Of a DNA stretch of 36,360 nucleotides, positions 2,183 through 24,961 are shown in pieces (the first letter of the stretch is position 1; each line of letters starts with the position of its first letter). The stretch spans positions 1 through 36,360 of the forward strand of contig JAAFIB010000023.1 in assembly GCA_013297725.1 (NCBI GenBank), in the 5' to 3' direction. The stretch comes from Sphingomonadales bacterium. GTDB lineage: Bacteria > Pseudomonadota > Alphaproteobacteria > Sphingomonadales > Sphingomonadaceae. The notes beneath the pieces were generated by a model. It did not search any database and had not been told where the DNA came from. It worked only from the letters and a program-made list of their open reading frames with translations. A program made the position numbers and the translations under genes.

Positions 2183-2216
2183 AGTGCAACAATCCTGGCA
2201 AAGCTAGGGTCGCAAA

Positions 2217-2258
2217 GGTGGGCCAGTCGCCAAAGGGAGACTGGCCCACCATTTGTTT
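2217..2258 (+). terminator. Rho-independent terminator after the TonB receptor
   Basis: GGTGGGCCAGTC (2217-2228) and GACTGGCCCACC (2239-2250) form a perfect 12-bp GC-rich stem with a 10-nt loop, followed by the T-rich tail ATTTGTTT. It lies 35 nt after the receptor stop codon. Confidence 0.85.
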
Positions 2259-2350
2259 GAAATAGGTGAGGAGCCAAGCCGGAATGCCCACAATTCCCCT
2301 TAAATTTGGCGAGAATTGCGGTATCAGCAATCATAGGGTGAGGATGATTG

Positions 2351-4354: not shown

Positions 4355-4367
4355 GGGGAGAATGATT

Positions 4368-9919: not shown

Positions 9920-9952
9920 ATTTTATTTACCAGTCGGGTCCGGCACGCTACG

Positions 9953-9969
9953 CTCTCCGTTCTGGAGAG
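9953..9969 (+). promoter_or_regulatory. Short inverted repeat over the lysR ribosome-binding region
   Basis: CTCTCC (9953-9958) and GGAGAG (9964-9969) are perfect inverted repeats with a 5-nt loop, ending 10 nt before the LysR ATG. The right arm contains the likely Shine-Dalgarno sequence, so the hairpin could hide it; a protein-binding site is also possible. Confidence 0.35.
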
Positions 9970-9979
9970 AGCAGCATAG

Positions 9980-10903
9980 ATGGCCAACAAGTTTGAATTG
10001 CGAAGACTACCTCCGCTTAAGGCCTTGCGCGGCTTTGAGGCGGCGACGCGTCATCAAAGCATCCGCGATGCTGCGGACGAGCTTTGCCTCACTCATCCCG
10101 CTGTCAGTCATCAGGTGCAGCTGGTTGAGGAAGCATTGGGCGTCGCGCTGTTCGCGCAGGAAGGGCGGCACATCGTCTCGACCGAAGAGGGACGCGCGCT
10201 TTACCCCTATGTCCGCGGCGCATTCGAATCGTTGCTTGAGGGTGTAGAGGCGGTCCACCGCCATGCGCTTGACAAGCCGCTGCGCGTCCAGACTTATGTA
10301 ACGGCATCGATCCGCTGGCTAGCAAAGCGCGTGCCGCATTTCTTGCACGACCATCCCGAAGTGACGTTGACCCTCAGCACCTGTGCGGTCGAATGGGAGT
10401 TTGACGATGTCCATGCCGATGTTGGGTTGGTCTATTGCGAGACAGTGCCAGACCCGACCAAATATCACTGGGTACCCTTGTTCGAATATCCGCTTTTCCC
10501 GGTATGCAGCCCGTCGCTTCTCAAAAAAATGGGCGATGCAGTATCAATCGAGGCGATGATGGAGCGGCCTTTAGTTGCGGTCTACACAGAGGTTAGAAAC
10601 TGGGATGCCTGGGTTCTATCAACAGGGCTAGAGCTAAAGCCGACGACGCCGTTCCTGATGGTCGACACGCTTGCCGTTGCGTTGGAAATGGCGCTCGACG
10701 GCGAAGGGATCGCGCTGGTCAATGGTCCCTTTGCGGATCAGGATTTGGCTGATGGCCGTTTAGTCAAACCTGTTGCGCATAAAGCCGTTTGCCCCGGAGA
10801 TTGGGGCCTGATTTGCCGGAAAGATATGCGCGAGAATTTGCGAATTAGAACTTTTATGGATTGGATTGCGGCGCATGTCGACGCGGCGGCCCGTCCCAAT
10901 TAA
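9980..10903 (+). CDS. LysR-family transcriptional regulator (GcvA-like)
   Basis: 307 residues. An N-terminal winged helix-turn-helix (about residues 8-67: LKALRGFEAATRHQSIRDAA, then LTHPAVSHQVQLVEEALG and the wing up to TEEGRALYP) is followed by a linker helix and a periplasmic-binding-like effector domain. The HTH wording is typical of the GcvA subgroup. It begins 60 nt after the GMC gene on the same strand, so it may be partly cotranscribed and probably senses the substrate or product of that operon. Its stop overlaps the stop of the convergent dehydrogenase gene by 3 nt. Confidence 0.92.
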   Translation: MANKFELRRLPPLKALRGFEAATRHQSIRDAADELCLTHPAVSHQVQLVEEALGVALFAQEGRHIVSTEEGRALYPYVRGAFESLLEGVEAVHRHALDKPLRVQTYVTASIRWLAKRVPHFLHDHPEVTLTLSTCAVEWEFDDVHADVGLVYCETVPDPTKYHWVPLFEYPLFPVCSPSLLKKMGDAVSIEAMMERPLVAVYTEVRNWDAWVLSTGLELKPTTPFLMVDTLAVALEMALDGEGIALVNGPFADQDLADGRLVKPVAHKAVCPGDWGLICRKDMRENLRIRTFMDWIAAHVDAAARPN

Positions 10904-11853
10904 CGTTTAGGCACGACCTCATATCCCGATTCTTCGGGCTCATCATCGACCATCTGATCTGGAAAGCCGGTGCCGAGAACTTTTATACCCAGCGGTTCTT
11001 CATAACGGCGGATGATGTTGGGTGAAAATTCGCGTGATCCATATGCCGCTTCACCTTCTTTAAACAGTCGAACGATCAGCGGCGACATTTCGACAGGGAC
11101 GCCAGCTTCTTGCGCGATTTTGTCAAACAGGCCGATATCCTTTGAAACCAGATCCATCGTAAAATTGATGTCGCGGCTTCCGTTCAGGATCACTTGGCTC
11201 TCAGTTTCATGGACGAAACTGTTGCCGGACGAAATCTTGATCGCTTCATATGTGGTGTTCATGTCAAGACCGATGGCTTTGCATGTGGTGAGTGCCTCGG
11301 CCAGCGCAACCAGATGAACCGTGCACAGATAGTTGGTCATCACTTTCAGCTGCGATGCGGTTCCCAGGTCGCCTGTGTGCAATATACGGCGGCCCATGGT
11401 GGTCAGCACCGGCAGCACAGTTTCAAATGCGGCGCGCGGGCCACCGGCAAAGATCGCTATGTTACCCGTATCGGCACGGTGACATCCGCCAGAGACCGGG
11501 CATTCCATGAATAGCGCGCCGCGTGCCTCGACCAGTGCACCCAGCCGGATAATTTCGCTGTAATCGGTTGTGCTCATTTCCAACCAAACTTGGCCGGGGC
11601 GCATCACTTGCAAAAACCCATCTGAGCCTTCTGCAACCGCACTGCTTGCCGCAGGGGATGGCAGGCAGGTGATGATCAGATCGACTGCTTCACCCAGTTC
11701 CATCGGGGATGCTGCCGCCTTGGCACCGCGCGCGACATATTCGGCGACTAACGCTTCATCAAGGTCGCGCACCACGACATCATGGCCGTTACGGATCAGG
11801 CTACCGGCGAGTTTGCCGCCAACATTGCCAAGGCCGATAAATCCTATTTTCAT
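10900..11853 (-). CDS. NAD(P)-dependent beta-hydroxyacid dehydrogenase (3-hydroxyisobutyrate dehydrogenase family)
   Basis: 317-residue protein beginning MKIGFIGLGNVGGKLAGSLI, a Rossmann GxGxxG dinucleotide site directly at the N-terminus; ATG 11853 is therefore chosen over further-upstream starts. The substrate-binding motif is ECPVSGGCHRADTG, and the catalytic Lys lies in GTASQLKVMTNYL, followed by the helical C-terminal domain. The family reduces or oxidises short beta-hydroxyacids or semialdehydes (3-hydroxyisobutyrate, tartronate semialdehyde, threonate). It is encoded convergently to the LysR gene and 209 nt downstream of the acyltransferase gene on the same strand. A role with the sugar-acid-like operon is possible but not shown. 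Confidence 0.88.
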   Translation of the reverse strand: MKIGFIGLGNVGGKLAGSLIRNGHDVVVRDLDEALVAEYVARGAKAAASPMELGEAVDLIITCLPSPAASSAVAEGSDGFLQVMRPGQVWLEMSTTDYSEIIRLGALVEARGALFMECPVSGGCHRADTGNIAIFAGGPRAAFETVLPVLTTMGRRILHTGDLGTASQLKVMTNYLCTVHLVALAEALTTCKAIGLDMNTTYEAIKISSGNSFVHETESQVILNGSRDINFTMDLVSKDIGLFDKIAQEAGVPVEMSPLIVRLFKEGEAAYGSREFSPNIIRRYEEPLGIKVLGTGFPDQMVDDEPEESGYEVVPKR

Positions 11854-12062
11854 ACGCGCCAAAATTATTCCCCAAGCGATCAGGGTTTTCCCCCATTTTA
11901 ATGTAGAGATTAAGCCGCGAGCGCCACCGCGCCACAATTGAAAAATTTGGCAAAAGGGGTCAAAATTTTTGCGAGTAAGCTGCGGCTGCCGGGAAGCTAG
12001 TCAAGTTGAACAATTTCCACCGGCAAGTTCATTGGTGCCATCAAAGGTTAACTGCCCCGATC

Positions 12063-12821
12063 TCACGCCATGGCTGACAGGATGCGCTGACGCGCTTCGG
12101 CACAAACTTCCTTGCGGTCGGCGAGGGTGCTTGGATCAAACGGTTCAAGGAAATGGACATCAACGATATAGCTGCCGGGGCGTGTGAAGGCACGCCATGC
12201 GCTTTCCCCACCCGTCTCTTCGCCCAGCCATGCAATGTCGGGACCAGCAGCGCCAAAATCGAGCAAAACCGGTTGGATCAGCATCGGCTTTGGCGGCGGC
12301 GCGAGTGTCGCAAAAAGAGAAGGCTTAAACGGCAAAAGTCCGCGACCGTCCGATGTTGTGCCTTCCGGAAACAGCGTGACTGACCAGTTCTCTGCAATCG
12401 CATCGCGTAATTCAGATACCTGCCCAGCGACATTCTGTTTTTCGGTGCGACTGACAAAGATTGTTCGATTCTGGGCCGCCAGCCAGCCAACGACTGGCCA
12501 TTTGCGGACCCCATCCTGAGCAACAAAAGCGGTCCCGGTAATCCCGCCTAATATGGGGATGTCATGCCACGATATATGGTTTGCGACAAAAAACACGTTT
12601 TTGCGCAGGCGCTTTCCATGGACTTTGACACGGGCGCCCAGCACGCGTGAGACTATCCGTAGATAGAGCATCGCCCATGGAGAGGGCTGTTTAAGCAGCT
12701 GCCACAGCAGATGAAGCGGCAGCAGCACCGCAAGCGGCAATGCAATCAGCAGCACACGCGCCGCACACAGAATATATGCCAGTGGTTCCTCTTTAGGAAT
12801 TCTGATCGAAAGAGTGGCCAC
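12063..12821 (-). CDS. 1-acyl-sn-glycerol-3-phosphate acyltransferase family protein (PlsC-like)
   Basis: 252 residues from a GTG start with GGAG 6 nt upstream. A hydrophobic N-terminal anchor (about 15-42: ILCAARVLLIALPLAVLLPL) precedes the acyltransferase domain. The HX4D catalytic motif is NHISWHD near residue 82, and the phosphate-binding block is FPEGTTSDG near 152. It transfers an acyl chain to lysophospholipid or a similar acceptor (phosphatidate or ornithine-lipid synthesis) at the inner membrane. It is unrelated in function to the catabolic neighbours and looks like a core gene flanking the demethylation operon, with which it is divergent. Confidence 0.88.
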   Translation of the reverse strand: MATLSIRIPKEEPLAYILCAARVLLIALPLAVLLPLHLLWQLLKQPSPWAMLYLRIVSRVLGARVKVHGKRLRKNVFFVANHISWHDIPILGGITGTAFVAQDGVRKWPVVGWLAAQNRTIFVSRTEKQNVAGQVSELRDAIAENWSVTLFPEGTTSDGRGLLPFKPSLFATLAPPPKPMLIQPVLLDFGAAGPDIAWLGEETGGESAWRAFTRPGSYIVDVHFLEPFDPSTLADRKEVCAEARQRILSAMA

Positions 12822-13052
12822 TTTTTACTCCGATGCGACGTTACTCAACCAAATGTGTGTGTAGACGATTTGTGTGACGCTGTGGTGACTTTTTATAGCC
12901 TGTATAGCTTCGCTCTGTTCCAGCTTAAAAAACATACGCTATCCACCAACGTGAAAATTTTTTGAACCAATGCCGCTATAATCCCCATTTGTCTCTGGTC
13001 TGTCATGCAGCCTAATGTCTGTGTAAATATTGCCATGAGGAGCGGGCATTTC
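12822..13052. promoter_or_regulatory. Divergent intergenic region with candidate promoter and direct repeat
   Basis: 231 nt between the PlsC-like gene and the demethylation operon, AT-richer than its flanks. It holds a direct repeat, AATGTGTGTGTA (12852-12863) and AATGTCTGTGTA (13014-13025), identical at 11 of 12 positions. A consensus-like -10 hexamer TATAAT is at 12977-12982, but no good -35 lies at the right distance. AGGAG at 13038-13042 is the likely ribosome-binding site for the ATG at 13053. A regulator binding the repeats is only a possibility. Confidence 0.35.
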
Positions 13053-15470
13053 ATGCAAACATCAGCGCGGGTTGTCATCATCGGGGGCGGGATCATGGGG
13101 GCGTCACTGCTTTACCATCTCGCTGAGCTTGGCTGGACGGATTGCCTGCTGATTGAAAAGGATGAGCTGACCTCCGGCTCCACATGGCACGCCGCAGGGC
13201 AATGCCCCAACATCACCGGCAGCTATAACCTGGCGAAAATGCACGCTTATTCGAACGAGCTGTACCCCCAGTTGGAGGGGCTGACCGGGCAATATGTCAG
13301 CTGGCATAAATCAGGCGGCATCCGGCTGGCGACCAATGAGCGTGAGCTATCGTGGATGCGCTATATTCAGGGCTTTTCCAAGGTCATCGGCTTTGACATG
13401 GAGATCATACCGCCTGAGGAAATCCTGAAGCATAATCCGTTCATGACCCTTGAAGGTGTGATCGCAGGTGCGCGAACGACCGAGGATGGCCATGCCGATC
13501 CTTCGGGTATATGCAATGCGCTGGCCATTGGTGCGAAGAATATGGGCGCGAAGATCGTCCGCAAGAACCGCGTTACCGGCCTGACCCAATTGCCATCGGG
13601 CGAATGGGATGTGGAAACGGAAAAAGGCACCGTCCGCGCTGAAATCGTTGTGAATGCTGCGGGCTGTTATGCACGGCAAATCGCGCAAATGGCGGGTATC
13701 GACATCCCTGTGACCAATATGGAGCATCACTACGTCGTCACTGATCCCATTCCTGCATTTAAAGATCGCGACGAAGAAATCCCCGTTATGCGATGCCCGC
13801 ATGTGTCCGGCTATTTCCGGCAGGAACAGAAAAGCGGGCTGATCGGCGTTTATGAGAGCACCGGTTTGGCCGAAGCATGGGCACCGCGCGGCGGGCATCC
13901 CGAATGGGAGTCGACCAGCGAGCTCTTCCCCGAAGATCTGGAGCGGATTTACCCTTGGTTGGAACGGGCGATTGAGCGGATGCCGATATTTGGCGAGGTC
14001 GGGCTTCGCCGTTTCGTCAATGGCGCGATCCCGCATACGCCCGATGGCGGGCCGTTGCTTGGGCCAGCGGTTGGCCTAAAGAATTTCTGGCATTGTTGCG
14101 GCACCAGCTTTGGCATTGCCCAGGGCGGCGGCGCTGGCAAATATATGGCGCAGTGGATGGTGTTTGGTGATGCCGACATTAACATGACCGAGTTCGATCC
14201 GCGCCGTTATGGTCCCTATGCTGATGAGCAGTATAGCCGTGACAAGGTGTTCCTCGATTACCGGATGACCTTCACCACCCGCCTGCCGGGTGAAGAAGAG
14301 CCCGATGGCCGCCCGCAAAAGATGAGTGCGCTTTATGCAAAGCTGAAAGATCAGGGCGCGGTGTATGGCGAAACCTATGGTTGGGAACGGCCGAAATACT
14401 TTGCGCTCGATGGTGCCGAAGAAATAGGCGGCTATCACCGGACCAACAGCTTCGATGCCGTCGCGGCCGAAGTAAAAGCGGTTGCCGAGCGGGTGGGTGT
14501 GCTCGATCTGTCGGGCTTTGCCAAATATGATGTCAGCGGCCCTGATGCCGAGGCTTTCCTCAACCGGATTTGTGCCAACCGCATGCCCAAAAAGGCTGGC
14601 GGGATTGGCCTTGTCCATCCGCTGTCGGTGCAGGGGCGCATCTATGGCGAGATGACCGTTACGCGTTTTGCCGATGATCATTTCTATTGCCTTTCTGCTG
14701 CCGCAGCCGAGCAACGCGATTGGGATTTGCTGATCCAGAGCAAATTGCCAGAAGAGGATGTGACGATTCGTAACCTGACCATGGATCTGGGTGTGCTCGT
14801 GATGAATGGCCCGCGTTCGCGCGATGTGCTGGCGAAGCTGACTAATGCCGACCTGAGCAATGAAGGCTTCCGCTGGCTAAGTGGTCAGGAGATTACGCTG
14901 GCCGGTATCAAGATGCGCGCGTTGCGAGTGTCTTACGCAGGCGAGTTGGGCTGGGAATTGCACCCTGCAATGAGCGATCTGGCTGCGCTTTATGACGCGG
15001 TTTGGGAAGCGGGACAGGAATTTGGCATCGTCAATTACGGCCTCTACGCCGCCAATTCGATGCGGACTGAAAAAGCCTATAAGGCCTGGGGGTCCGAACT
15101 AACCAACGAGTTGACGATGATCGAAGCTGACCTGCCGCGCTTCATCAATTTCAAAAAAGAGGATTTCGTCGGTAAACAGGAAACGCTTGATGCGCCGGAC
15201 CGGTTCCGCATTGTGTACGGCGAAGTCGATGCGTCGAATGTCGATGTGCGCGGCGCGGAACCTTGCATGATCGGCAATACGTGCATCGGGCTTACGACGT
15301 CGGGCGGCTATGGCCACCGCGTTGGCAAGAGCTTGTTCTTCGCTTGCGTGCCGATTGAGAACGCTACGCCTGGATCAAGTTTTGACATCATGCTGCAGGG
15401 CGAGCTTCGCAAAGGCACGGTGCTGGAACACCCCGCCTATGACCCTGACAATGCAAAAATGAAGGCGTAA
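13053..15470 (+). CDS. Dimethylglycine/sarcosine dehydrogenase-like FAD-GcvT fusion protein (first copy)
   Basis: About 805 residues. The N-terminal DAO-type FAD domain has RVVIIGGGIMGASLLYHL and the TSGSTWHAAG motif, whose His is the site of covalent FAD attachment in DMGDH/SARDH. An FAO-type linker follows around 370-430, then GcvT folate-binding domains (about 440-800) with SYAGELGWELHPAM and TTSGGYGHRVGKS. Such enzymes oxidatively remove an N-methyl group and pass the C1 unit to tetrahydrofolate as 5,10-methylene-THF. ATG 13053 is used because AGGAG lies 10 nt upstream and it directly precedes the FAD motif; ATGs at 13005 and 13035 are less well placed. First gene of a seven-gene operon, 5 nt before its paralogue. 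The N-methyl substrate is unknown. Confidence 0.9.
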   Translation: MQTSARVVIIGGGIMGASLLYHLAELGWTDCLLIEKDELTSGSTWHAAGQCPNITGSYNLAKMHAYSNELYPQLEGLTGQYVSWHKSGGIRLATNERELSWMRYIQGFSKVIGFDMEIIPPEEILKHNPFMTLEGVIAGARTTEDGHADPSGICNALAIGAKNMGAKIVRKNRVTGLTQLPSGEWDVETEKGTVRAEIVVNAAGCYARQIAQMAGIDIPVTNMEHHYVVTDPIPAFKDRDEEIPVMRCPHVSGYFRQEQKSGLIGVYESTGLAEAWAPRGGHPEWESTSELFPEDLERIYPWLERAIERMPIFGEVGLRRFVNGAIPHTPDGGPLLGPAVGLKNFWHCCGTSFGIAQGGGAGKYMAQWMVFGDADINMTEFDPRRYGPYADEQYSRDKVFLDYRMTFTTRLPGEEEPDGRPQKMSALYAKLKDQGAVYGETYGWERPKYFALDGAEEIGGYHRTNSFDAVAAEVKAVAERVGVLDLSGFAKYDVSGPDAEAFLNRICANRMPKKAGGIGLVHPLSVQGRIYGEMTVTRFADDHFYCLSAAAAEQRDWDLLIQSKLPEEDVTIRNLTMDLGVLVMNGPRSRDVLAKLTNADLSNEGFRWLSGQEITLAGIKMRALRVSYAGELGWELHPAMSDLAALYDAVWEAGQEFGIVNYGLYAANSMRTEKAYKAWGSELTNELTMIEADLPRFINFKKEDFVGKQETLDAPDRFRIVYGEVDASNVDVRGAEPCMIGNTCIGLTTSGGYGHRVGKSLFFACVPIENATPGSSFDIMLQGELRKGTVLEHPAYDPDNAKMKA

Positions 15471-15475
15471 TCCGC

Positions 15476-17920
15476 GTGGCTGAACTCCCCAAAAAAGCGA
15501 AGGTCGTTATCGTTGGTGGCGGTGTTATCGGCTGTTCCATTGCGTATCATCTGACCAAGATCGGTTGGGACGATGTTGTGCTGCTGGAACGCAAGCAATT
15601 GACCAGCGGCACCACTTGGCATGCGGCGGGTCTTGTCGGGCAACTGCGCCCGTCGATCAACATGACCAAGCTCGCCAAATATACCGGCGAGCTTTACCGC
15701 GGGCTAGAGGCCGAGACGGGCCAAGCAACCGGATACCGGCAGTGCGGTTCGATCTCTATGGCGACCAATCAGGAACGGTTCGAGGAACTGAAACGCAGTG
15801 CGTCGATGGCCAAGGTATTTGATCTGCCCGTCCATGTCGTGACGCCAGACGAGATCAAGGCGATGGCAAACATCGTCAATGTCGACGATGTCGTCGGCGG
15901 CATCCACATCCCCAGCGATGGCTATGCCAATGCGGTCGACATAACACAGGCACTGGCCAAGGGCGCGCGGACCGGCGGCGCAAAGATATTTGAGAACACC
16001 AAAGTCACTAAGATCCGCCACAATAATGAACGGGTAACCGGCGTTGATACCGATGAAGGCAGCATCGATGCGGACTATGTCGTCATTTGCGGCGGCATGT
16101 GGACGCGCGATCTCGCGGCCAGCATTGGCGTCGCCGCCCCCCTGCACGCTTGCGAGCATTATTATGTGCTGTTCGAAGGCGTTGAGGGCATCGACAACAC
16201 GCTACCCGTGCTGCGCGACTACGACTATTGCGGTTATTACAAATACGATGCGGGCAAGCTGCTTGTGGGCGCCTTTGAGCCCAATGCGCGGCCCTGGGGC
16301 ATGGACGGCATCTCCGAAGATTTCTGCTTCGATGAAATCGCCGGTAGTTTTGAACATTTCGAACCGTTGCTGATGGACGCCATGCGCCGCGTGCCTGCAC
16401 TTGAAAAAGCAGGCATCCAGAAATTCTTCTGCGGCCCCGAAAGCTTCACGCCCGATGTGCGCTATCATTTGGGCGAGGCTCCAGAACTCAAAGGCTGTTT
16501 CGTTGCTGCTGGCCTCAACTCCATCGGCCTGCAATCGGCGGGCGGCGTGGGCAAAGTGATGGCGGACTGGATCCGCGATGGCATTCCGCCTGCGGACTTG
16601 TGGACTGTCGATATCCGCCGCAACATGCCGTTCCAGATCAACCGCAAATATCTGCGCGAACGTGTGACCGAAAGTCTCGGCCTGCTGTACGCGACGCACT
16701 ATCCGTTCAAGCAGTATGAAACCGCGCGGGGCGTGCGGAAATCTGCATTGCACGACCGGCTGGTCGCAGCAGGCGCTTGTTTTGGCGAAGCATTCGGCTG
16801 GGAACGTGCGAACTGGTACGGCGAACCGGGCAGTACACCCAAATATGAATATAGCTATGGCCGCCAAAACTGGTTCGATGCCAATGCCGCCGAATGCAAA
16901 GCGGTGCGGGAAGCGGTCGGTCTGTTCGACCAATCAAGCTTTGCCAAATTCCGTCTTGAAGGCCGCGACGCGATGACTGTGCTCAATCGCGTCTGCGCCA
17001 ATGATGTCGATGTCGCACCGGGCAAACTGGTTTATACACAGTGGCTGAATGAGAAAGGCGGCATTGAAGCGGATCTTACCGTCACCCGCCTTTCGGAAAC
17101 CGCCTATCTAATCGTGACGGGCGCAGAGACTGAGACCAAGGATTTCAACTGGCTGAAACGTCACACGCCAGCTGATGCGCATGCGGTGCTGACCAACATA
17201 ACATCTGGCATGGGTGTCATCTCGATAATGGGACCGAACAGCCGTGCATTGTTACAGTCGCTGACCCCCAATGATCTGTCGCATGAGGCGTTTCCGTTTG
17301 CGACCAGCCAAGAGATCGAACTCGGCTACGCCATCGTGCGGGCATCGCGGATCACCTATGTCGGGGAGCTAGGTTGGGAGCTTTATATCCCCACCGAATT
17401 TATGACCGGAGTGTATGACGAGATCGTTGCGGCGGGCGCGGCATTTGGCCTGAAACATTGCGGCTATCACGCACTCAATGCGCTGCGCATGGAAAAGGGT
17501 TATCGCCACTGGGGCCATGATATCACCGATGAAGATACCCCGTTGGAGGCTGGCCTTGGCTTTGCAGTGAAGATGGACAAAGCGGGCGGCTTTATCGGTC
17601 GCAATGCGCTTTTGAAGCAAAAGGAAGAGGGGCTGAAACAGCGGCTTGTTCAATTCCTGCTCAAAGACCCGCAGCCTATGCTCTATCATAACGAACCCGT
17701 CTGGCAGAGCGACCGCATCGCGGGCTATATCCGTTCGGGCATGTACACTCATGGCCTCGGCGGAGCGTGCGGGCTTGGTTATGTCACTGCGGCTGACGGC
17801 GGCGTAGTCGGGCCGATTGGTCCTGACGACTTTGAAATCGAAATTGCGGGCGTGCGCTATCCTGTCACTGCATCGCTGAAACCTATGTACGACCCCACAA
17901 ACACCCGGATCAAAATCTGA
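15476..17920 (+). CDS. Dimethylglycine/sarcosine dehydrogenase-like FAD-GcvT fusion protein (second copy)
   Basis: 814 residues from a GTG start, 5 nt after the first copy. Same architecture: KVVIVGGGVIGCSIAYHL, covalent-FAD motif TSGTTWHAAG, FAO domain (about 365-425) and GcvT domains with TYVGELGWELYIPTE and MYTHGLGGACGLGYV. The sequence after the FAD-His (LVGQLRPSINMTKLAKYT) is the form seen in ordinary sarcosine/dimethylglycine dehydrogenases, whereas the first copy has QCPNITGSYN there. The two copies therefore probably act on different intermediates of one pathway, for example successive N-methyl groups, or form a pair. Electrons would go to electron-transfer flavoprotein; no etf genes are in the window. 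Confidence 0.91.
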   Translation: MAELPKKAKVVIVGGGVIGCSIAYHLTKIGWDDVVLLERKQLTSGTTWHAAGLVGQLRPSINMTKLAKYTGELYRGLEAETGQATGYRQCGSISMATNQERFEELKRSASMAKVFDLPVHVVTPDEIKAMANIVNVDDVVGGIHIPSDGYANAVDITQALAKGARTGGAKIFENTKVTKIRHNNERVTGVDTDEGSIDADYVVICGGMWTRDLAASIGVAAPLHACEHYYVLFEGVEGIDNTLPVLRDYDYCGYYKYDAGKLLVGAFEPNARPWGMDGISEDFCFDEIAGSFEHFEPLLMDAMRRVPALEKAGIQKFFCGPESFTPDVRYHLGEAPELKGCFVAAGLNSIGLQSAGGVGKVMADWIRDGIPPADLWTVDIRRNMPFQINRKYLRERVTESLGLLYATHYPFKQYETARGVRKSALHDRLVAAGACFGEAFGWERANWYGEPGSTPKYEYSYGRQNWFDANAAECKAVREAVGLFDQSSFAKFRLEGRDAMTVLNRVCANDVDVAPGKLVYTQWLNEKGGIEADLTVTRLSETAYLIVTGAETETKDFNWLKRHTPADAHAVLTNITSGMGVISIMGPNSRALLQSLTPNDLSHEAFPFATSQEIELGYAIVRASRITYVGELGWELYIPTEFMTGVYDEIVAAGAAFGLKHCGYHALNALRMEKGYRHWGHDITDEDTPLEAGLGFAVKMDKAGGFIGRNALLKQKEEGLKQRLVQFLLKDPQPMLYHNEPVWQSDRIAGYIRSGMYTHGLGGACGLGYVTAADGGVVGPIGPDDFEIEIAGVRYPVTASLKPMYDPTNTRIKI

Positions 17921-19170
17921 TGTCTGAAACGCAAAGCCAATTAATGCAGCGCCTCGCCGCCAATACGCGGGTGGGGTATAGCTTTGACCAAGAATTCTAC
18001 GCAAGCGATGCGGTGTTCAAGGCCGACATGGACCAGATCATCAGCCGCAAATGGATCGTCGCAGGTCATGTTTCTCGCATCCCCAACAAGGGCGACTATT
18101 TCCTGTTCAAAATTGGCGGTGAACAGATTATCGTCATCCGCGAGAATGCCGACAGCGTCCGTGCGTTTTTCAATGTGTGCCGCCACAGGGGGTCGACTAT
18201 CTGTCAGGCGGAAAGCGGAAACGCGCCGCGCCTTGTCTGCCCTTATCACGCTTGGACCTTCGGGTTGGATGGACGCCTGATCTCCGCACGGCTGATGCCA
18301 GAGGATTTTGACAAGGCCGAAAACAGTCTGTTTCCTTGCCATATCCGCGTTTTCCATGGGCTGATCTTCATCAACATGAGTGAGGATGAGCTCGATGATT
18401 TCGACGAGACTTTTGGCGATTTGGGACCAATTCTCGACTATCATGGCATGGCTGAAGCGCGCATCGCGCATGCGGGCAGCTACCCGACCACCGCCAATTG
18501 GAAACTGGTGATCGAGAATTTCTTCGAATGTTATCACTGCGTGCCGTCACATCCCGAATTTTGCTCCATGCATGCATCGGAATCGATTGTTGCGGTGGGT
18601 GCCGGGCCAAGCTCCGGACCCGCCGACGCAATTGCTAGCTTCGCGCCCAAGTTAAAGGCATGGGAAGAAAGCGCAGCAGCACTTGGCCGCCCTATCGGTA
18701 CGATCGACGATGCGCCGGGCAGCAGCCACCTGCGCATATTGATGCAGCGGATGAACAAAGAAGGATGGGCCGCCGAAACGCAAGACGGAACTGCGCCGTC
18801 GCCGTTGATGGGCAAGCGTACCAAGCCCGATGGTGGGCGCATGCACCTAAGTTTTAGCCCGTTTAGCCAGATTGTCGCGGACGATCATTTTGTCATCCTG
18901 TTCCAGTTCACGCCGCGCAGTGCGCTTGCCTCTGACGTTGAAATGATCTGGCTTGTCGATGGCCGCGCAACCGAGGATCAGGTCGATATCGACAAGATGA
19001 TCTGGGGCTATCACGCCACCACCACGCAGGACAAAATCATCACCGAGAATAATCAAAATGGCATCATGTCCAGCAGATACCGTCCGGGCCGCTATTCAGA
19101 GCAAGAGGGCAGCGTGATCAACTTTCAGAAATGGTATCTCAACCAATTCGGGCTTGAGCGCGCCGAGTGA
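17920..19170 (+). CDS. Rieske non-heme iron oxygenase, alpha subunit (betaine demethylase-like)
   Basis: 416 residues; the ATG overlaps the previous stop by one base (TGATG). The Rieske [2Fe-2S] ligands are Cys87/His89 (CRHRG) and Cys107/His110 (CPYHAW). The mononuclear iron site is His206 and His211 in FFECYHCVPSHPEF, with an Asp near 371 in TTTQDKIITENN. The ECYHCxxxH wording is that of GbcA glycine-betaine and stachydrine demethylase-type oxygenases, which hydroxylate an N-methyl group so that it leaves as formaldehyde. Between N-demethylating flavoproteins and C1-transfer enzymes, an N-demethylation role fits well. No ferredoxin or reductase gene (GbcB-type) is encoded beside it, so electrons must come from a partner elsewhere. 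Confidence 0.92.
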   Translation: MSETQSQLMQRLAANTRVGYSFDQEFYASDAVFKADMDQIISRKWIVAGHVSRIPNKGDYFLFKIGGEQIIVIRENADSVRAFFNVCRHRGSTICQAESGNAPRLVCPYHAWTFGLDGRLISARLMPEDFDKAENSLFPCHIRVFHGLIFINMSEDELDDFDETFGDLGPILDYHGMAEARIAHAGSYPTTANWKLVIENFFECYHCVPSHPEFCSMHASESIVAVGAGPSSGPADAIASFAPKLKAWEESAAALGRPIGTIDDAPGSSHLRILMQRMNKEGWAAETQDGTAPSPLMGKRTKPDGGRMHLSFSPFSQIVADDHFVILFQFTPRSALASDVEMIWLVDGRATEDQVDIDKMIWGYHATTTQDKIITENNQNGIMSSRYRPGRYSEQEGSVINFQKWYLNQFGLERAE

Positions 19171-20246
19171 GCATTGCAACCACCATGCACGCGGTATTAC
19201 TGACCGGTCATGGCGGGTATGAAAAGCTCGTGTTGCGGGATGATGTGCCCGTGCCAATGCCCGGACAAGGCGATGTCCTGATCCGCATTGGCGCAGCGGC
19301 AGTCAACAACACCGACATCAACACGCGGATTGGCTGGTATTCAAAGGCTGTGGCTGAGGCGACCAATGCGAGTGCAGCAACCGGCATAGACGGCGCGGGC
19401 AATGATGGCTGGTTGGGTGCAGCTTTCGCCTTTCCGCGCATTCAGGGGGCGGATGCTTGCGGACGGATTGTTTCAGTGGGGCAGGGTGTTGACCCGGCGC
19501 GGATTGGCGAACGGGTGCTGGTCGAGCCTGCATTTCGCGGCAACAGCAAATATGACATCCGCTATTTCGGTTCTGAAGTCGATGGAGCCTTTGCCGACTA
19601 TGCCTGTGTCCCTTCGGCCCACGCCCACGCGATAGAATCGCCGCTCTCCGACGTAGAGCTCGCAAGCTTTCCCTGCGCTTATGCCACCGCTGAAAACATC
19701 CTCACCCGTATCGGCCTGATGGCAGGAGAGTGCGTGCTGATCACCGGCGCATCTGGAGGCGTGGGTTCCGCCGCTGTGCAGCTCGCCAACAGGCGCGGAG
19801 CGGAGGTGATCGCGATGGCCAGCAGCGACAAGGCCGAAGCCGTCCGTGCTCTGGGTGCAACGCATATTATCCCTCGCGATGCTGATCTGGTCGCGCTGTT
19901 CGGCCAAGAGCATTTCGACGCCGCTGTCGACATCGTTGGCGGTATACAGTTCGGCGCTATCCTGAATACACTCAAACGTGGTGGCCGCTATGGCGTGTCG
20001 GGCGCAATCGCAGGCCCCATTGTCGACCTTGATCTGCGGACGCTTTACCTGAAAGACCTGCGCTTAATTGGCTGTACAGTTCTGGAGCCTGAGGTTTTTG
20101 CAAAGCTGGTCGGCTATATCGAACGCGGCGAGATCAGGCCTATGGTCGCGGCAGCCTTTGGACTGGCCGATATCGTTGCGGCGCAGGAAGCATTTTTGAC
20201 TAAGCAACATGTGGGGAAGATAGTTTTGACCGGCTGGTCCGACTAG
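19167..20246 (+). CDS. MDR-family NAD(P)H:quinone oxidoreductase / zinc-type alcohol dehydrogenase homologue
   Basis: 359 residues from a GTG start overlapping the Rieske stop (GTGA). A GroES-like N-terminal domain (MHAVLLTGHGGYEKL, then GDVLIRIGAAAVNNTDI) is followed by a Rossmann domain with VLITGASGGVGSAAVQLA. The four-Cys structural zinc loop of alcohol dehydrogenases is absent, so the protein is nearer the quinone-oxidoreductase / acryloyl-CoA reductase side of the family. An insertion near residues 60-75 (SNASAATGIDGAGND-like) is unusual for short quinone reductases. It probably reduces an unsaturated or carbonyl intermediate of the pathway. Confidence 0.86.
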   Translation: MSIATTMHAVLLTGHGGYEKLVLRDDVPVPMPGQGDVLIRIGAAAVNNTDINTRIGWYSKAVAEATNASAATGIDGAGNDGWLGAAFAFPRIQGADACGRIVSVGQGVDPARIGERVLVEPAFRGNSKYDIRYFGSEVDGAFADYACVPSAHAHAIESPLSDVELASFPCAYATAENILTRIGLMAGECVLITGASGGVGSAAVQLANRRGAEVIAMASSDKAEAVRALGATHIIPRDADLVALFGQEHFDAAVDIVGGIQFGAILNTLKRGGRYGVSGAIAGPIVDLDLRTLYLKDLRLIGCTVLEPEVFAKLVGYIERGEIRPMVAAAFGLADIVAAQEAFLTKQHVGKIVLTGWSD

Positions 20247-20281
20247 GGCAATCGGATTAATGACAACGGAGAGGGAGCAAA

Positions 20282-20317
20282 ATGACAATATCAGATCGAG
20301 GTTTAGCCAATGGCTGA
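20282..20317 (+). other. Eleven-codon upstream ORF overlapping the enoyl-CoA hydratase start
   Basis: ATG 20282 has a strong Shine-Dalgarno (GGAGAGGGAG, ending just upstream) and encodes [11 protein letters not shown] before TGA at 20315-20317, which overlaps the next gene's ATG (20310). The strong ribosome site belongs to this mini-ORF rather than to the hydratase, which has only GAGG 8 nt upstream. It could couple translation across the 63-nt gap or be chance. Confidence 0.3.
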
Positions 20318-21107
20318 CACACTACCCAATTTGAATTTCATGCTGGCCGCGGCACAAGGCGATGTCCTTGTCGTCACGCTCAATCGTGCGGATAAACGCA
20401 ATGCGCTCTCCGCTGCATTCATTGAAGAAATCTGTTCTTTGTTCGAATGGGTCCGCCGCACCGAAGCCGTCCGCGCTGTCGTGATGAAGGCAGATGGCAG
20501 CGTCTTCTGCGCAGGGCTGGACCTGATCGAGCATCATCTGGAAGACCGCAGCGCAACCGACTTCATGTATATCTGCCGCCGGTGGCATGCCGCTTTTGAT
20601 GCCATTCAGCATTGCGGAAAGCCTGTGGTGGGCGCGCTGAACGGTGCCGTTGTCGGCGGTGGGCTGGAGCTCGCATCATCCTTCCACATCCGTGTAGCAG
20701 ACCAGACGACTTACTTTGCCCTACCCGAAGGGCAGCGCGGCATCTTTACTGGTGGCGGTGCCACAGTTCGTGTGGCTGGCCTCGTTGGCGAAGCGCGGAT
20801 GGTCGATATGATGCTCACCGGCCGGGTCTATTCGGGCGATGAGGCTGTCAATGTAGGCCTATGCCAATATCTGGTCGAGGGATCGAGCTTTGACAAGGCG
20901 ATGGAGATCGCCAGCAAAGCGGCGGAAAACCCGCCGCTGTCCAACTTCGCAATCACATCCGGCATCGCGCATATCGGCAATATGGCATCGGGCGATGCCT
21001 ATTATGCCGAGGCCTTTATCGCAGGGATCACCAACACCCAGCCTGCGTCAAAGGACCGTCTGGCCGCCTTTATGAACAAGACGGCCGCCAAAGTGGTAAA
21101 GGAGTAA
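20310..21107 (+). CDS. Enoyl-CoA hydratase/isomerase (crotonase) family protein
   Basis: 265 residues. Crotonase oxyanion-hole segments are FCAGLDL (near 70) and [12 protein letters not shown]. Both acid/base glutamates of true hydratases are present with the usual 20-residue spacing: Glu120 in GGGLELA and Glu140 in ALPEGQRG. It would add water to, or isomerise, an acyl-CoA made from the demethylated or deaminated carbon skeleton. No CoA ligase or acyl-CoA dehydrogenase is encoded nearby. In the DMSP demethylation pathway the crotonase DmdD hydrates methylthioacryloyl-CoA, and crotonobetainyl-CoA hydratase is another onium-linked crotonase, so both are alternatives. It lies 7 nt upstream of the DmdA-like gene. 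Confidence 0.9.
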
Positions 21108-21114
21108 AAAGCGC

Positions 21115-22218
21115 ATGTTCTCATTCTCTCCAACTTTGCGCGTGCGGCCATCGCCCTTTTTTGACTCAGCCGTGGCTGAAGGGATGGTCTCGGCAAATAT
21201 CTATAACCGCATGATCATGCCGACATCCTATGGTGATCCGGAGGGAGAGTATTGGCGGCTGATCAACGGCGTGTCGCAATGGGACGTAGGCGTAGAGCGC
21301 CAAGTGCAGCTAAAGGGTCCGGATGCGGGTACGCTGGCGCAGATTCTCAGCCCGCGTAACCTGTCTAAATGCAAGGTTGGCCAGGGCAAATATGTGCCGC
21401 TATGCAATCATCGTGGCACCGTCATCAACGATCCTATTTTACTGAAACTGGCTGATGACTTGTATTGGTTTTCAATTGCGGACAGTGACATCTGGTTCTG
21501 GGCGAGCGCGATTGCGGCGGAGCGCGGGCTTAATGTAGAAATCAGCGAGCCCGATGTCTCACCCATGGCTATTCAGGGGCCAAAGGCCGAAGATGTCGTT
21601 GCCCACGTGATGGGCGATTGGGTGCGTGACATCAAATATTTCTGGTTCAAAGAAACCGAGATCAATGGCATTCCTGTAGCCGTGCAGCGATCCGGCTGGT
21701 CAAAACAGGGCGGGTTTGAAATCTATCTGAAAGACGGCAGCCGCGGCACCGAACTGTGGAACATCTTTAAGGAGGCTGGGCAGTCCTGGGGCATTGGCCC
21801 AGGCGCACCTGCCACACCAGAACGAGTTGAAAGCGGCCTGGTATCGGTTGGCGGCGATACGGATGAGAACACAAATCCATTTGAAGTGCGGCTTGGCCAG
21901 TATGTAAATCTTGACGTCCCAGATGATGTGATAGGGATAGAAGCGCTGCGGCGGATCAATCAGGAAGGCGTAAAGCGCCATCAGCTGGGCATTATCTTGA
22001 ACGGAGACACGCCTTCACCGCTGGGCATTCGCACCGAAGAGATTGTCCATAATGGGTCTGTCGTGGGCAAAATGACCATCTGTGTTTGGTCCCCACGCAT
22101 GAAAGCCAATATCGGCTACGCGTTGATTTCATCCTCCGTCCCGGTGGGCGAGGTCGTTATTGTCGCGCGCCCAAGTGGCCCGGTGAATGCGCAGCTTGTT
22201 GAGCTCCCGTTCCTGTGA
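21115..22218 (+). CDS. DmdA-like GcvT-family tetrahydrofolate methyltransferase
   Basis: 367 residues, the size of DmdA (DMSP demethylase) and shorter than the LigM/DesA O-demethylases. DmdA-like wording runs through the protein: NRMIMPT near residue 30, WDVGVERQVQLKG, SPRNLSKCKVGQGKY, FSIADSDIWFWA and, centred on Trp195, SGWSKQGGFEIYL. These enzymes move a methyl group from an onium or methoxy donor to THF, giving 5-methyl-THF. The stretch that I recall as SYGND in DmdA reads VSVGGDTDEN here, so a substrate other than DMSP is quite possible. AAAGGAG lies about 10 nt upstream. The MetF-like gene overlaps its stop, matching its expected product. Glycine-cleavage T protein is unlikely, because no gcvH or gcvP is present. 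Confidence 0.82.
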   Translation: MFSFSPTLRVRPSPFFDSAVAEGMVSANIYNRMIMPTSYGDPEGEYWRLINGVSQWDVGVERQVQLKGPDAGTLAQILSPRNLSKCKVGQGKYVPLCNHRGTVINDPILLKLADDLYWFSIADSDIWFWASAIAAERGLNVEISEPDVSPMAIQGPKAEDVVAHVMGDWVRDIKYFWFKETEINGIPVAVQRSGWSKQGGFEIYLKDGSRGTELWNIFKEAGQSWGIGPGAPATPERVESGLVSVGGDTDENTNPFEVRLGQYVNLDVPDDVIGIEALRRINQEGVKRHQLGIILNGDTPSPLGIRTEEIVHNGSVVGKMTICVWSPRMKANIGYALISSSVPVGEVVIVARPSGPVNAQLVELPFL

Positions 22219-23081
22219 GCGTTGAGCCGGCGTTTGATACAATAGCGCGCAGCGTCACTGCGCATTACTCGCTTGAGGTGACGGCAAAGGATGTCCCGGC
22301 GCTGCGCGATGCAGCGCCGATGATCCCGGCAGGCACGCCACTCTCCGTCACCTTCCTGCCCGACGAAGAGTCCGTAGCGCGCATCGCGGCGGTCGTTGCT
22401 GCGCGCAAGATGGGGTTTGAGCCGATGCCGCACTTTTCGGCACGGCGGATCGCCTCACAAACCGATTTTGAGGGTTATCTGCGCGGCGTTGTTGAACAGG
22501 CTCAAGTCACACGCTGTTTCATTGTGGCGGGCGATCCTCCGGCCGCATTGGGGCCGTATTCGGATACGATGTCGCTCATCCAAATCGGCGCTTTTGAAAA
22601 AGTGGGCATAAAGTCGATTGGGATTGGCGGGCATCCCGAAGGGCATCCGATCATGTCGACCGACGAATGCTGGGCGGTGTTGAGCGCGAAAATGGAAGAG
22701 ATTGAGCGGCGCGGCATGGCAGCCTTGATCGTGACTCAATTTGGCTTTGACTCAGATAGAGTGCTGGCGTGGCTTAAGGAACTGCGTGCCCGTGGGATCG
22801 AGGCCCCGGTGCGCATCGGCATTCCGGGCCCGGCCAGCATCCGCCTCCTGCTCCGCTTTGCCACTCGGTGCGGCGTCGGCGCGTCCGCTGCTGTGATGAA
22901 AAAATACGGTGTTTCGATCACAAATTTGTTGGGATCGGCAGGACCGGACAAATTGGTAAACGACTTCGCCAAGGCACTTGGCCCTGATCATGGAAAGGTT
23001 CGGCTGCATTTCTATCCGTTCGGCGGCCTAGTCAAAACGGTCGAGTGGATCAACGGCTACGAGGCGCTGCGCGGGCTTTAA
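22215..23081 (+). CDS. Methylenetetrahydrofolate reductase (MetF-like)
   Basis: 288 residues from a GTG start overlapping the DmdA-like stop (GTGA). It is a TIM-barrel flavoprotein of the MetF family: Glu21 in YSLEVTAKD corresponds to the family's catalytic Glu near the N-terminus, and Asp107 in IVAGDPPA to the folate-binding GD motif. SIGIGGHPEGHP and LIVTQFGFD are typical strands. It interconverts 5-methyl-THF and 5,10-methylene-THF. Last in the demethylation operon, it would run in the oxidising direction to feed methyl groups taken by the DmdA-like enzyme into the C1 pool, as MetF does beside ligM in the vanillate-degrading sphingomonad SYK-6. Confidence 0.9.
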   Translation: MSVEPAFDTIARSVTAHYSLEVTAKDVPALRDAAPMIPAGTPLSVTFLPDEESVARIAAVVAARKMGFEPMPHFSARRIASQTDFEGYLRGVVEQAQVTRCFIVAGDPPAALGPYSDTMSLIQIGAFEKVGIKSIGIGGHPEGHPIMSTDECWAVLSAKMEEIERRGMAALIVTQFGFDSDRVLAWLKELRARGIEAPVRIGIPGPASIRLLLRFATRCGVGASAAVMKKYGVSITNLLGSAGPDKLVNDFAKALGPDHGKVRLHFYPFGGLVKTVEWINGYEALRGL

Positions 23082-23147
23082 TACTCAACGGTTCTGACAT
23101 GGTCGCCTCTTCGGTGCCAACAAGTTTATCCCATGCCGTTCGCTTAA

Positions 23148-23176
23148 TTGACACCGGTGTCTTTTTTGGATAATAT
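23148..23176 (+). promoter_or_regulatory. Sigma70-type promoter with overlapping LacI-type operator, lyase operon
   Basis: TTGACA (23148-23153) and TAATAT (23171-23176) are separated by exactly 17 bp. The 12-bp perfect palindrome GACACCGGTGTC (23150-23161) overlaps the -35 box, so a bound repressor would block the polymerase. The same palindrome occurs before the FAH gene and, degenerate, before the second TonB receptor. Confidence 0.75.
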
Positions 23177-23248
23177 TCTTGTTATTGGGGTAAAACGCGA
23201 TGTTATGCGAAACGCATCGACCCGTATTTCGACTGAAAGGTAATTGCC

Positions 23249-24961
23249 ATTTCGAAGCTTATCGGCCTTTCGCTGCTAGCGGTCTCGTTTCTCATCGGCA
23301 CGAAAGCGTTGGCGGAGGAAAAGGGTGCCCGCGGTCTACGTCTGATAACGGCTCCTGCGACTATGGCGGCCAATCCGATCCCTGATTTCAGTTACGCAGG
23401 TTACGGCTTTGGTGTTGCTCCGATTCCGACTGATGGTGGCACCATCATCAGCGTCATCGATCATGGTGTGATCCCAGACGATAATAAGGATGATGCAAAG
23501 GCCATCCTAAAAGCGCTGGACGCAGCGGACCAAATACAAGGACGCGTCACTATTCGCTTTCCCAAGGGGCGGATACAGATTGGCGAGATCATTCCGGTTG
23601 AACGCAGCGACATTGTTCTGGATGGCGCTGGTAGTGGAAAGGAAGGCGGGACCGAATTCTATTTCCCGCGCCCCCTTAAAATCGTCGATACATCCGATCG
23701 CGAGGATGATCTGCGTGAATATCTAAAGCGTGAGGCGAAGTATCAAGTTGAGCCGGACCAGAATATCAACTTCCTGTTTTCGGAATACAGCTGGTCGGGT
23801 GGGTTTATCTTGGTCGGGCCGAAAAAGTCGCAGGCGGTGAGCTATTCGGCTAACAACGAGAAACGCGATGCTGTTCTAGCGCAGGCGGTTTCGGGTAAGC
23901 AGTTTGCCCAGCAGTTAACGGTATCGGACACAACAAAGCTGAAGGTTGGCCAAGTCGTGCAGCTGCAATGGTTTGCCACGGCGGGCGAAAACAGCCCGAT
24001 CCTGAAATCACTCTATGGCGATATCAGCGGCTGGAATGCCAAGCAAACTGATCCGAAGATGAAGATGAACATCGGTCAGCGGCACTGGGAGTTCGCCAAT
24101 CGGCCCACGGTGGCGCAATCGACGCGGATCACGGCGATCAAGGGCAATGTCGTGACGCTGGGCGATCCGCTGCTGCACGATGTTTCCGCCACCCAGCCCG
24201 CGCAGATCGCCAACTGGCAACACCTCAGCAATGTTGGCATCCAGAATATCCGCTTCACTTTCCCCTATAGCCCATGGTTCGGGCACCATCTGGAGCAGGG
24301 CTATAACGCTATCTATTTGACCGGGGTGTTCGATGGCTGGGCGAAGAACCTTGTGATCGAAAATGCCGACAGCGGCATCCTGACTGATAATGCGGCGTCG
24401 CTGACCATCGCCAACATCACCACCACGGGCAATCACAAGGCGCATTATTCGGTGCATGTGGGCGCGGTGCACAATGTGTTGGTACAGGATTTGCAGGTCG
24501 AAAATCCGGTCATCCACCCGCTATCGGTCAATACCCGCTCCACCCGTTCAGTCTACCAACGCGCTACGGTTCTGCGTGACGGCATTATCGACCAGCATAG
24601 CGGATCGAACCACCAGAATCTGTTCGATCAGATTGTGATGGATGTGAAGCCCAAGAAGCGCGATGGCAGCTGGACTTTCCCGCTATGGGTTGCGGGCGGC
24701 GCGCCCTATTGGAAGCCTGGCCACGGCCTGATGAACACGCATTGGAACATCCGGCTGAACTTTGAAGAGGGCGTCCCCGAAGGCCAGACAGTCCGGGTTT
24801 ATAGCGGCCTCGAAGGCCCCGGCGCACGGATCGTCGGCCTACACGGCAATCGCCCAGTTGAGGTCGATTACAAACCCGACGCTTATGTTGAGGGTACCAA
24901 CGCCGCGCCGTCCATCCCCTCGCTCTACGATTACCAACTCGCCAAGCGCCAAAAGCGCTAA
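23249..24961 (+). CDS. Secreted right-handed beta-helix protein, probable polysaccharide lyase
   Basis: About 570 residues if translation begins at ATT 23249; without a canonical start until TTG 23309 the protein would lack its signal peptide. Codons 23249-23314 read as a classic export signal (SKLIGLSLLAVSFLIGTKALA, then EE), with the in-frame stop at 23234 and AAGG 8 nt before the ATT. The mature part begins with a pectate-lyase-3-like segment (VISVIDHGVIPDDNKDDAKA, RVTIRFPKGRIQIGEII) and continues as parallel beta-helix coils (VGIQNIRFTFPYS, VHNVLVQDLQVENPVIHP). Such folds cleave uronic polymers by beta-elimination; a PL31/DUF4955-like family is a guess. Followed by isomerase and KduD genes, so the product is probably an unsaturated uronate. 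Located in the periplasm or outside the cell. Confidence 0.82.
   Translation: MSKLIGLSLLAVSFLIGTKALAEEKGARGLRLITAPATMAANPIPDFSYAGYGFGVAPIPTDGGTIISVIDHGVIPDDNKDDAKAILKALDAADQIQGRVTIRFPKGRIQIGEIIPVERSDIVLDGAGSGKEGGTEFYFPRPLKIVDTSDREDDLREYLKREAKYQVEPDQNINFLFSEYSWSGGFILVGPKKSQAVSYSANNEKRDAVLAQAVSGKQFAQQLTVSDTTKLKVGQVVQLQWFATAGENSPILKSLYGDISGWNAKQTDPKMKMNIGQRHWEFANRPTVAQSTRITAIKGNVVTLGDPLLHDVSATQPAQIANWQHLSNVGIQNIRFTFPYSPWFGHHLEQGYNAIYLTGVFDGWAKNLVIENADSGILTDNAASLTIANITTTGNHKAHYSVHVGAVHNVLVQDLQVENPVIHPLSVNTRSTRSVYQRATVLRDGIIDQHSGSNHQNLFDQIVMDVKPKKRDGSWTFPLWVAGGAPYWKPGHGLMNTHWNIRLNFEEGVPEGQTVRVYSGLEGPGARIVGLHGNRPVEVDYKPDAYVEGTNAAPSIPSLYDYQLAKRQKR

Follow-up and report, generated by a model that had tools for sequence, protein, structure and literature searches.

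Probable joining of a betaine N-demethylation operon and a dimethylsulfoniopropionate demethylation-type module with a non-canonical DmdA-like protein in a sphingomonad

Introduction

Do seven adjoining demethylation-related genes in a sphingomonad serve one compound, or do they bring two pathways together? The genes occupy positions 13053-23081 of a 36,360-nucleotide stretch (hereafter the window), which is the whole of contig JAAFIB010000023.1 in assembly GCA_013297725.1 of a Sphingomonadales bacterium. They encode two DAO-GCV_T two-domain proteins (FG1 and FG2), a Rieske oxygenase, an MDR-superfamily oxidoreductase, a crotonase, a DmdA-like methyltransferase dependent on tetrahydrofolate (THF), here called DMDA, and a small MetF-like protein (METF). 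A sequence-only reading of this DNA had proposed one pathway stripping methyl groups from one compound. On balance, we favor the reading that the run is a betaine N-demethylation operon joined with a dimethylsulfoniopropionate (DMSP) demethylation-type module, in which the DmdA-like enzyme is non-canonical.

Results

Organization of the gene run

All seven genes lie on the + strand. Their open reading frames and Pfam matches bear out the families that the sequence-only reading had named; the fifth and sixth products match the Pfam crotonase and GCV_T families, respectively.

13053..15470, +, FG1, DAO-GCV_T two-domain protein of the dimethylglycine-dehydrogenase type (core module)
15476..17920, +, FG2, second DAO-GCV_T protein, dimethylglycine/sarcosine-dehydrogenase type (core module)
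17920..19170, +, Rieske oxygenase of the quaternary-ammonium (Group V) type (core module)
19167..20246, +, MDR-superfamily oxidoreductase, Pfam ADH_N + ADH_zinc_N, role unassigned (core module)
20247..20309, +, intergenic gap of 63 bases (boundary of the core and added modules)
20310..21107, +, DmdD-like crotonase, methylthioacryloyl-CoA hydratase type (added module)
21115..22218, +, DMDA, DmdA-like THF-dependent methyltransferase of a non-canonical clade, 367 residues (added module)
22215..23081, +, METF, small MetF-like methylene-THF reductase, catabolic type (added module)

The FG1 frame opens at 13005, and 805-residue homologues in two related loci (L111 and L264) favor a start at 13053. 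Start and stop codons had been described as mostly overlapping. This holds for three of the six junctions (overlaps of 1, 4, and 4 bases), while at the other three the genes are 5, 63, and 7 bases apart, with the largest distance between the MDR and crotonase genes. From the end of the METF gene to the start of the next gene there are 227 bases. The near-continuous arrangement is consistent with a single transcript in this strain. A consensus scan of positions 12700-23500 returned 6 promoters against 6.5 in shuffled sequences and 8 terminators against 10.0, no excess in either case, and a promoter-like site within the 63-base gap (20260-20289) is within chance expectation. Since these counts are no higher than in the shuffles, promoters and terminators were dropped as operon evidence. 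Across the seven genes, the GC content ranges from 0.547 to 0.594 and third-position GC from 0.611 to 0.668.

The first four genes form a conserved core

Conservation was assessed in 58 related genomes of two genera, 45 from the organism's own genus and 13 from the sister genus. FG2 orthologues occur in 29 of the 45 own-genus genomes, the organism itself included (92-96% identity), and in 9 of the 13 sister-genus genomes (88-96%); a thirtieth match in the own genus, in G709, is only 45% identical. Core loci were read in 35 of the 37 relatives with an FG2 orthologue, leaving out G691 and G704, in which the FG2 genes are cut. FG2 and the Rieske gene are present in all 35. FG1 lies in the same stretch in 33, and in L109 and L271 it is found on an adjoining stretch or another contig. 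The MDR gene directly follows the Rieske gene in 32 loci; the exceptions are L242 and L259, with no MDR gene before the contig end, and L264, where a crotonase gene lies between. The MDR gene belongs to the conserved core.

In none of the 35 related core loci does DMDA or METF adjoin the core, and none has the seven-gene order; some of these loci end shortly after the MDR gene, and the genome-wide searches for the crotonase and DMDA span the same 58 genomes. The sequence-only reading had itself named conservation of the gene set as a check on its claim of one pathway for one compound, and that check fails here. The four-gene core occurs without the other three genes in most relatives, and the two further genomes with DMDA and METF carry this pair at a distance from the core.

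Two features of the related loci stand apart from this pattern. In L263 (G688), the FG2 gene is split into two adjoining frames, either a true break or an assembly error. Upstream of FG1, most relatives carry an SDR gene (34-39% identical to the window KduD) between FG1 and an acyltransferase gene; it is absent from that position in the window and in some other relatives.

The crotonase is closest to DmdD

The best solved matches of the crotonase are 4izb (344 bits) and 4izc (341 bits), followed at a distance by a match of 215 bits; we take 4izb to be DmdD. A DmdD structure is cited in PMC5395565, which supports this assignment, and the enzyme is described there as specialized for the DMSP demethylation pathway. 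The protein is 61% identical to Phaeobacter DmdD, and its plasmid matches, of which the best 30 of 114 records are listed, are all annotated dmdD among those 30. Among solved and annotated crotonases, it is closest to DmdD. Glu120 and Glu140 are retained within GGGLELAS and LPEGQRG, as in P. inhibens DmdD, although this catalytic pair is common to other crotonases too and so is not DmdD-specific. Because it is DmdD-like, the crotonase more probably serves a sulfonium branch than a betaine skeleton. The sequence-only reading had assigned both the crotonase and the MDR enzyme to the skeleton left after demethylation.

A window-type crotonase (85-92% identity) occurs in 5 of the 58 genomes (the organism's own, G699, G653, G718, and G581), and all three genomes with a window-type DMDA are among these five (chance 3e-4 by a simple count that ignores relatedness). 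G709, whose genome is 7% contaminated, has a more distant crotonase (58%) within a dmdC-dmdD-dmdB-dmdA-like cluster.

DMDA belongs to a clade separate from canonical DmdA

The best solved match of DMDA is 3tfh, the DmdA of P. ubique (258 bits, full length). Tyr93, Ser120, Trp195, Glu202, and Tyr204 of DMDA correspond to Tyr95, Ser122, Trp197, Glu204, and Tyr206 of 3tfh, the match to published DmdA numbering being deduced from spacing. The folate-site residues Tyr93, Ser120, Glu202, and Tyr204 and the active-site loop SGWSKQGG are kept in the window clade, and the loop is common to DMDA and canonical DmdA. The tryptophan linked to DMSP is replaced by Tyr in five of the six canonical rows, and Trp is not diagnostic.

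In a 94-row tree, the DmdAs of P. ubique and P. inhibens and four others form one starred clade, and DMDA falls in a separate starred clade of 24 rows; the branch of P. ubique DmdA is long, which makes its own place in the tree less sure. Ten further DmdA-like proteins, with the P. ubique and P. inhibens DmdAs left out, were scored against the cut-off of the NCBIfam DmdA model (PRK12486, 410 bits). Only L136, of the same family, passes (585), and nine non-canonical relatives all fall below. The identification of DMDA as canonical DmdA was dropped in view of the tree and of its own missed cut-off (see below). The "non-DmdA" homologues treated in PMC7487153 are similar in that they lie outside the DmdA clade and keep the DMSP-linked Trp; in the excerpted text of that source they have a DmdA-like structure and are given no function. 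Unlike those homologues as presented there, members of the window clade keep company with dmdB, dmdC, and dmdD. DMDA possibly represents a new demethylase lineage.

Relatives of DMDA stand beside dmdB, dmdC, and dmdD

A window-type DMDA is found in 3 of the 58 genomes, namely, the organism's own, G699 (80%), and G653 (89%), and only 4 of 397 family genomes have any DMDA at an E value of 1e-40. Records of the window clade come from the Rhizobiaceae group, Rhodobacterales, SAR116, sphingomonads, and actinobacteria. In all three genomes with a window-type DMDA (the window, L134, and L281), the gene is paired with METF. The G699 and G653 copies directly precede METF (72% and 80%, respectively), have a divergent LysR gene upstream, and lie apart from the core.

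Counting as a dmdD neighbor any gene at least 45% identical to dmdD within 4 kb of DMDA, we found one in 8 of 25 window-clade loci, 2 of 5 canonical loci, and 0 of 64 other non-canonical loci (8/25 versus 0/64, Fisher 1.5e-5, relatedness ignored). This neighbor state requires at least seven changes on the tree. Genes for dmdB and dmdC are near 4 and 3 of the 25 window-clade DMDAs, respectively. No common theme was found among the neighbors of window-clade DMDAs without dmdD, which include ABC permeases, POR/DUF6537, coenzyme A (CoA) transferase, and aldehyde dehydrogenase genes.

In Marivivens sp. LCG002, an 84% identical DMDA orthologue is the first gene of an A-B-C-D operon, in which B encodes an AMP-binding ligase, C an acyl-CoA dehydrogenase, and D is dmdD. 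Compared with the dmd operon of P. inhibens DSM 17395, the B, C, and D proteins are 62%, 58%, and 77% identical and the A protein only 40%. On the simplest reading of these identities, the A gene was replaced and the remaining dmd genes were retained. Ahrensia sp. R2A130 also combines a window-type DMDA with dmdD.

A related LysR gene stands divergently upstream in 10 of the 25 window-clade loci, among them the five whose DMDAs are closest to the window protein. In the window, the part of this genome in which this LysR gene was looked for, it is missing, and DMDA follows the crotonase gene and the core, as if the gene had been taken over by the regulation of the core.

Genes of another DmdA-like clade (L229, L230, L184, L191, L196, and L199) are found with a CoA ligase gene and with a crotonase gene of another kind, whose product is 25-29% identical to that of the window. 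On Phaeobacter plasmids, this other operon carries an Lrp regulator and an OsmC-family gene, and it is a methyltransferase operon of unassigned substrate.

Comparison with the known DMSP operon

The dmdABCD pathway of DMSP demethylation is reviewed in PMC5395565. As in the dmdABCD operon of Phaeobacter inhibens DSM 17395 (pPGA1_262, L226), a DmdA-type THF methyltransferase gene in the window adjoins a DmdD-type crotonase gene. However, the window A protein belongs to the other clade and is 39% identical to P. inhibens DmdA, the B and C genes are missing from the neighborhood, and the set includes a MetF gene and stands behind a betaine operon. DmdC-like dehydrogenases are encoded on other contigs of the same genome (46% on C63 and 41% on C116), as are weaker DmdB-like ligases.

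METF resembles reductases of O-demethylation loci

METF passes the Pfam MTHFR model (30 bits, cut-off 24) and falls below the NCBIfam MetF equivalog (31 bits, cut-off 294). Its best solved match is the small MTHFR 7xg9 (307 bits). In all four sphingomonad plasmid regions that were opened, METF relatives (56-66% identical) adjoin a divergent GcvT-like gene of about 465 residues, presumably of LigM/DesA size, and purU and a folD-type gene are nearby. By analogy with these LigM-type, THF-dependent O-demethylation loci, this suggests that METF runs from methyl-THF to methylene-THF. The window shares with them a MetF relative beside a GcvT-like methyltransferase gene; it differs in that the partner is a 367-residue DmdA-like protein and in that purU and folD are not local. 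MetF neighborhoods across the class were also tried as a marker, and DMDA adjoined only 4 of the 40 loci read (L055, L056, L062, and L077). MetF-like genes are mostly without DMDA, so MetF alone is a poor marker.

Core proteins are of betaine demethylation families

FG1 and FG2 are full-length DAO + FAO_M + GCV_T + GCV_T_C proteins and thus of the dimethylglycine dehydrogenase (DMGDH) type. FG1 matches Pfam DAO with 210 bits and GCV_T with 224 bits, and FG2 with 243 and 279 bits. For both, the best solved match is DMGDH 4p9s, nearly over the full length (596 bits for FG1, 510 bits for FG2). Both keep a TWHAAG motif, with His46 in FG1 and His49 in FG2, which we take to be the covalent FAD-binding histidine of DMGDH.

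The Rieske protein matches Pfam Rieske and Ring_hydroxyl_A and carries the CxH...CxxH cluster motif at residues 87-110 and E-C-x-x-C at residues 203-207. This Cys pair at the iron site is given in PMC10952381 as unique to some Group V Rieske members, and the two motifs place the window protein in Group V (quaternary ammonium). They are common to the Group V enzymes of glycine betaine and stachydrine demethylation (GbcA, Stc2, and CntA), and in those systems, as in the window, DMGDH-type enzymes follow. Unlike GbcA itself, the window protein scores 282 bits against the NCBIfam GbcA cut-off of 670, and it was not assigned to that family. The run also differs in having the MDR gene in place of a ferredoxin-type reductase gene, a comparison made within the run and not across the genome. 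AcuI, whose gene adjoins dmdA in roseobacters, was considered for the MDR protein and rejected (NCBIfam NF051456, 58 bits against a cut-off of 440; the gene belongs to the core). Other marine bacteria have a cobalamin-dependent betaine route (PMC12478193).

Proposed pathway and alternative readings

In the model that we infer for the substrates, reaction directions, and co-transcription of the run, the core (FG1-FG2-Rieske-MDR) would be an old, genus-level operon for the oxidative N-demethylation of a betaine such as glycine betaine. Judging from the protein families, the Rieske oxygenase would take off the first N-methyl group as formaldehyde, and FG1 and FG2 would pass the next two into methylene-THF. 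The crotonase-DMDA-METF module would be a DMSP-demethylation-type set captured by the betaine operon. DMDA would transfer to THF an S-methyl group from a sulfonium acid, DMSP being the likeliest, and METF would oxidize the methyl-THF to methylene-THF, with both modules feeding one one-carbon pool. The ligase and dehydrogenase steps would be carried out by DmdB- and DmdC-like enzymes encoded elsewhere in the genome, and the crotonase would hydrate and cleave the methylthioacryloyl-CoA formed later. The folate logic of the sequence-only reading, with methylene-THF from the FAD-GcvT proteins, methyl-THF from the DmdA-like protein, and MetF as the link, fits these families and is retained.

Several observations weigh against a DMSP-type module joined to the core. 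DMDA scores 355.6 bits, below the DmdA cut-off of 410, and a single clade of DMDA and canonical DmdA is rejected by the approximately unbiased (AU) test (p-AU 0.0018). Neither dmdB nor dmdC was found in the window, which is therefore not a dmdABCD operon. The best DmdB-like genes on other contigs of the same genome reach only 34-36%, and this weak DmdB candidate is a real gap in the pathway. The crotonase occurs without DMDA in G718 and G581, and dmdD is missing from the 4 kb around DMDA in 17 of the 25 window-clade loci, many of them being cut by contig ends. According to the excerpted text of PMC6309047, two Ahrensia isolates produced no detectable methanethiol from DMSP. In L264 (G653, of the other genus), the crotonase gene lies inside the core operon, between the Rieske and MDR genes and with a 4-base overlap with the latter. 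The crotonase has joined the same core operon in this second genome at a different position, and the two may have some functional or regulatory tie.

It is possible, but in our view unlikely, that the added module is real and separate and acts on another methylated acid, be it another sulfonium, an N-methyl, or a methoxy compound, whose skeleton would be processed by a CoA ligase, a dehydrogenase, and the crotonase. The position of DMDA outside the canonical DmdA clade argues for such a substrate, as do the other DmdA-like clades that adjoin CoA ligases, some with a different crotonase and no dmdD, and the occurrence of the small MetF family mostly in O-demethylation-type loci of sphingomonads. 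However, the crotonase beside window-clade DMDAs is DmdD-like and not of the 25-29% type of the other operons, the SGWSKQGG loop is common with canonical DmdA, and the B, C, and D proteins of Marivivens are close to a DMSP operon of the characterized type.

A single pathway for one onium compound, with three demethylation chemistries and with the crotonase and MDR enzymes acting on the skeleton, appears improbable. The close spacing with three overlaps, the even base composition of the seven genes, and the crotonase inserted in the G653 core would all agree with it. Against it stand the seven-gene set found in none of the 35 related core loci, the separation of DMDA and METF from the core in G699 and G653, and the lack of a CoA ligase in the run to make the crotonase substrate. 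We consider it very improbable that the junction is a metagenome-assembly artefact or that the two modules are passive neighbors without common expression. The assembly consists of 148 contigs, one of which, known from the assembly only, is the window in full, and the widest gap falls exactly at the module boundary; yet the 3.0-Mb genome has a completeness of 99.99 and a contamination of 1.28, neither GC nor third-position GC shifts at the boundary, and the crotonase is joined to the same operon, at another position, in a second genome. Two modules meeting in one run, the second of DMSP-demethylation type, is the reading that we retain. In the openly licensed literature searched, no description was found of the seven-gene set or of the DMDA clade beside dmdBCD.

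Other loci of the genome and window

Contig C77 of the same genome (L115 and L116) has two GbcA-like Rieske genes, three GCV_T genes, several DAO oxidoreductase genes, and a BCCT transporter gene. Should glycine betaine be degraded through this locus, a different betaine may be the substrate of the window core.

Positions 17-11937 of the window encode a TonB receptor, a TPR-sulfotransferase, an MFS protein, an aldehyde dehydrogenase, an enolase-superfamily protein, a choline-dehydrogenase-like GMC protein, a LysR protein, and a HIBADH-like protein, and this set is syntenic beside the core in relatives. Within it, the GMC protein (568 bits, cut-off 605) and the aldehyde dehydrogenase (424 bits, cut-off 669) both score below their family cut-offs. 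A hydroxyproline-betaine cluster, to which the upstream enolase-superfamily gene might point, was considered and dropped; the solved relatives of that protein are unnamed racemase-family proteins from which no substrate follows, and no literature match was found for the set.

Discussion

The head-to-tail arrangement of two osmolyte-demethylation modules would be a natural case of operon capture. A bolder reading, to which we give somewhat less than even odds, makes DMDA a second DMSP demethylase of separate origin that took the place of canonical DmdA in dmdBCD operons and was overlooked because it is annotated as a "glycine cleavage T protein." In this sphingomonad, such an enzyme would be wired into a betaine operon, sending S- and N-methyl groups to one folate pool. 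It could also explain DMSP demethylation in bacteria without a recognized dmdA. Erythrobacter sp. LZB006 released methanethiol from DMSP, yet, in the excerpted text of PMC6309047, no dmdA was amplified from it and none was present in genomes of the genus. The DMDA clade is a candidate explanation for this observation, the genome of LZB006 itself lying outside the present analysis. As dmdA is the marker gene for DMSP demethylation, surveys of canonical dmdA would miss this lineage if the clade also demethylates DMSP.

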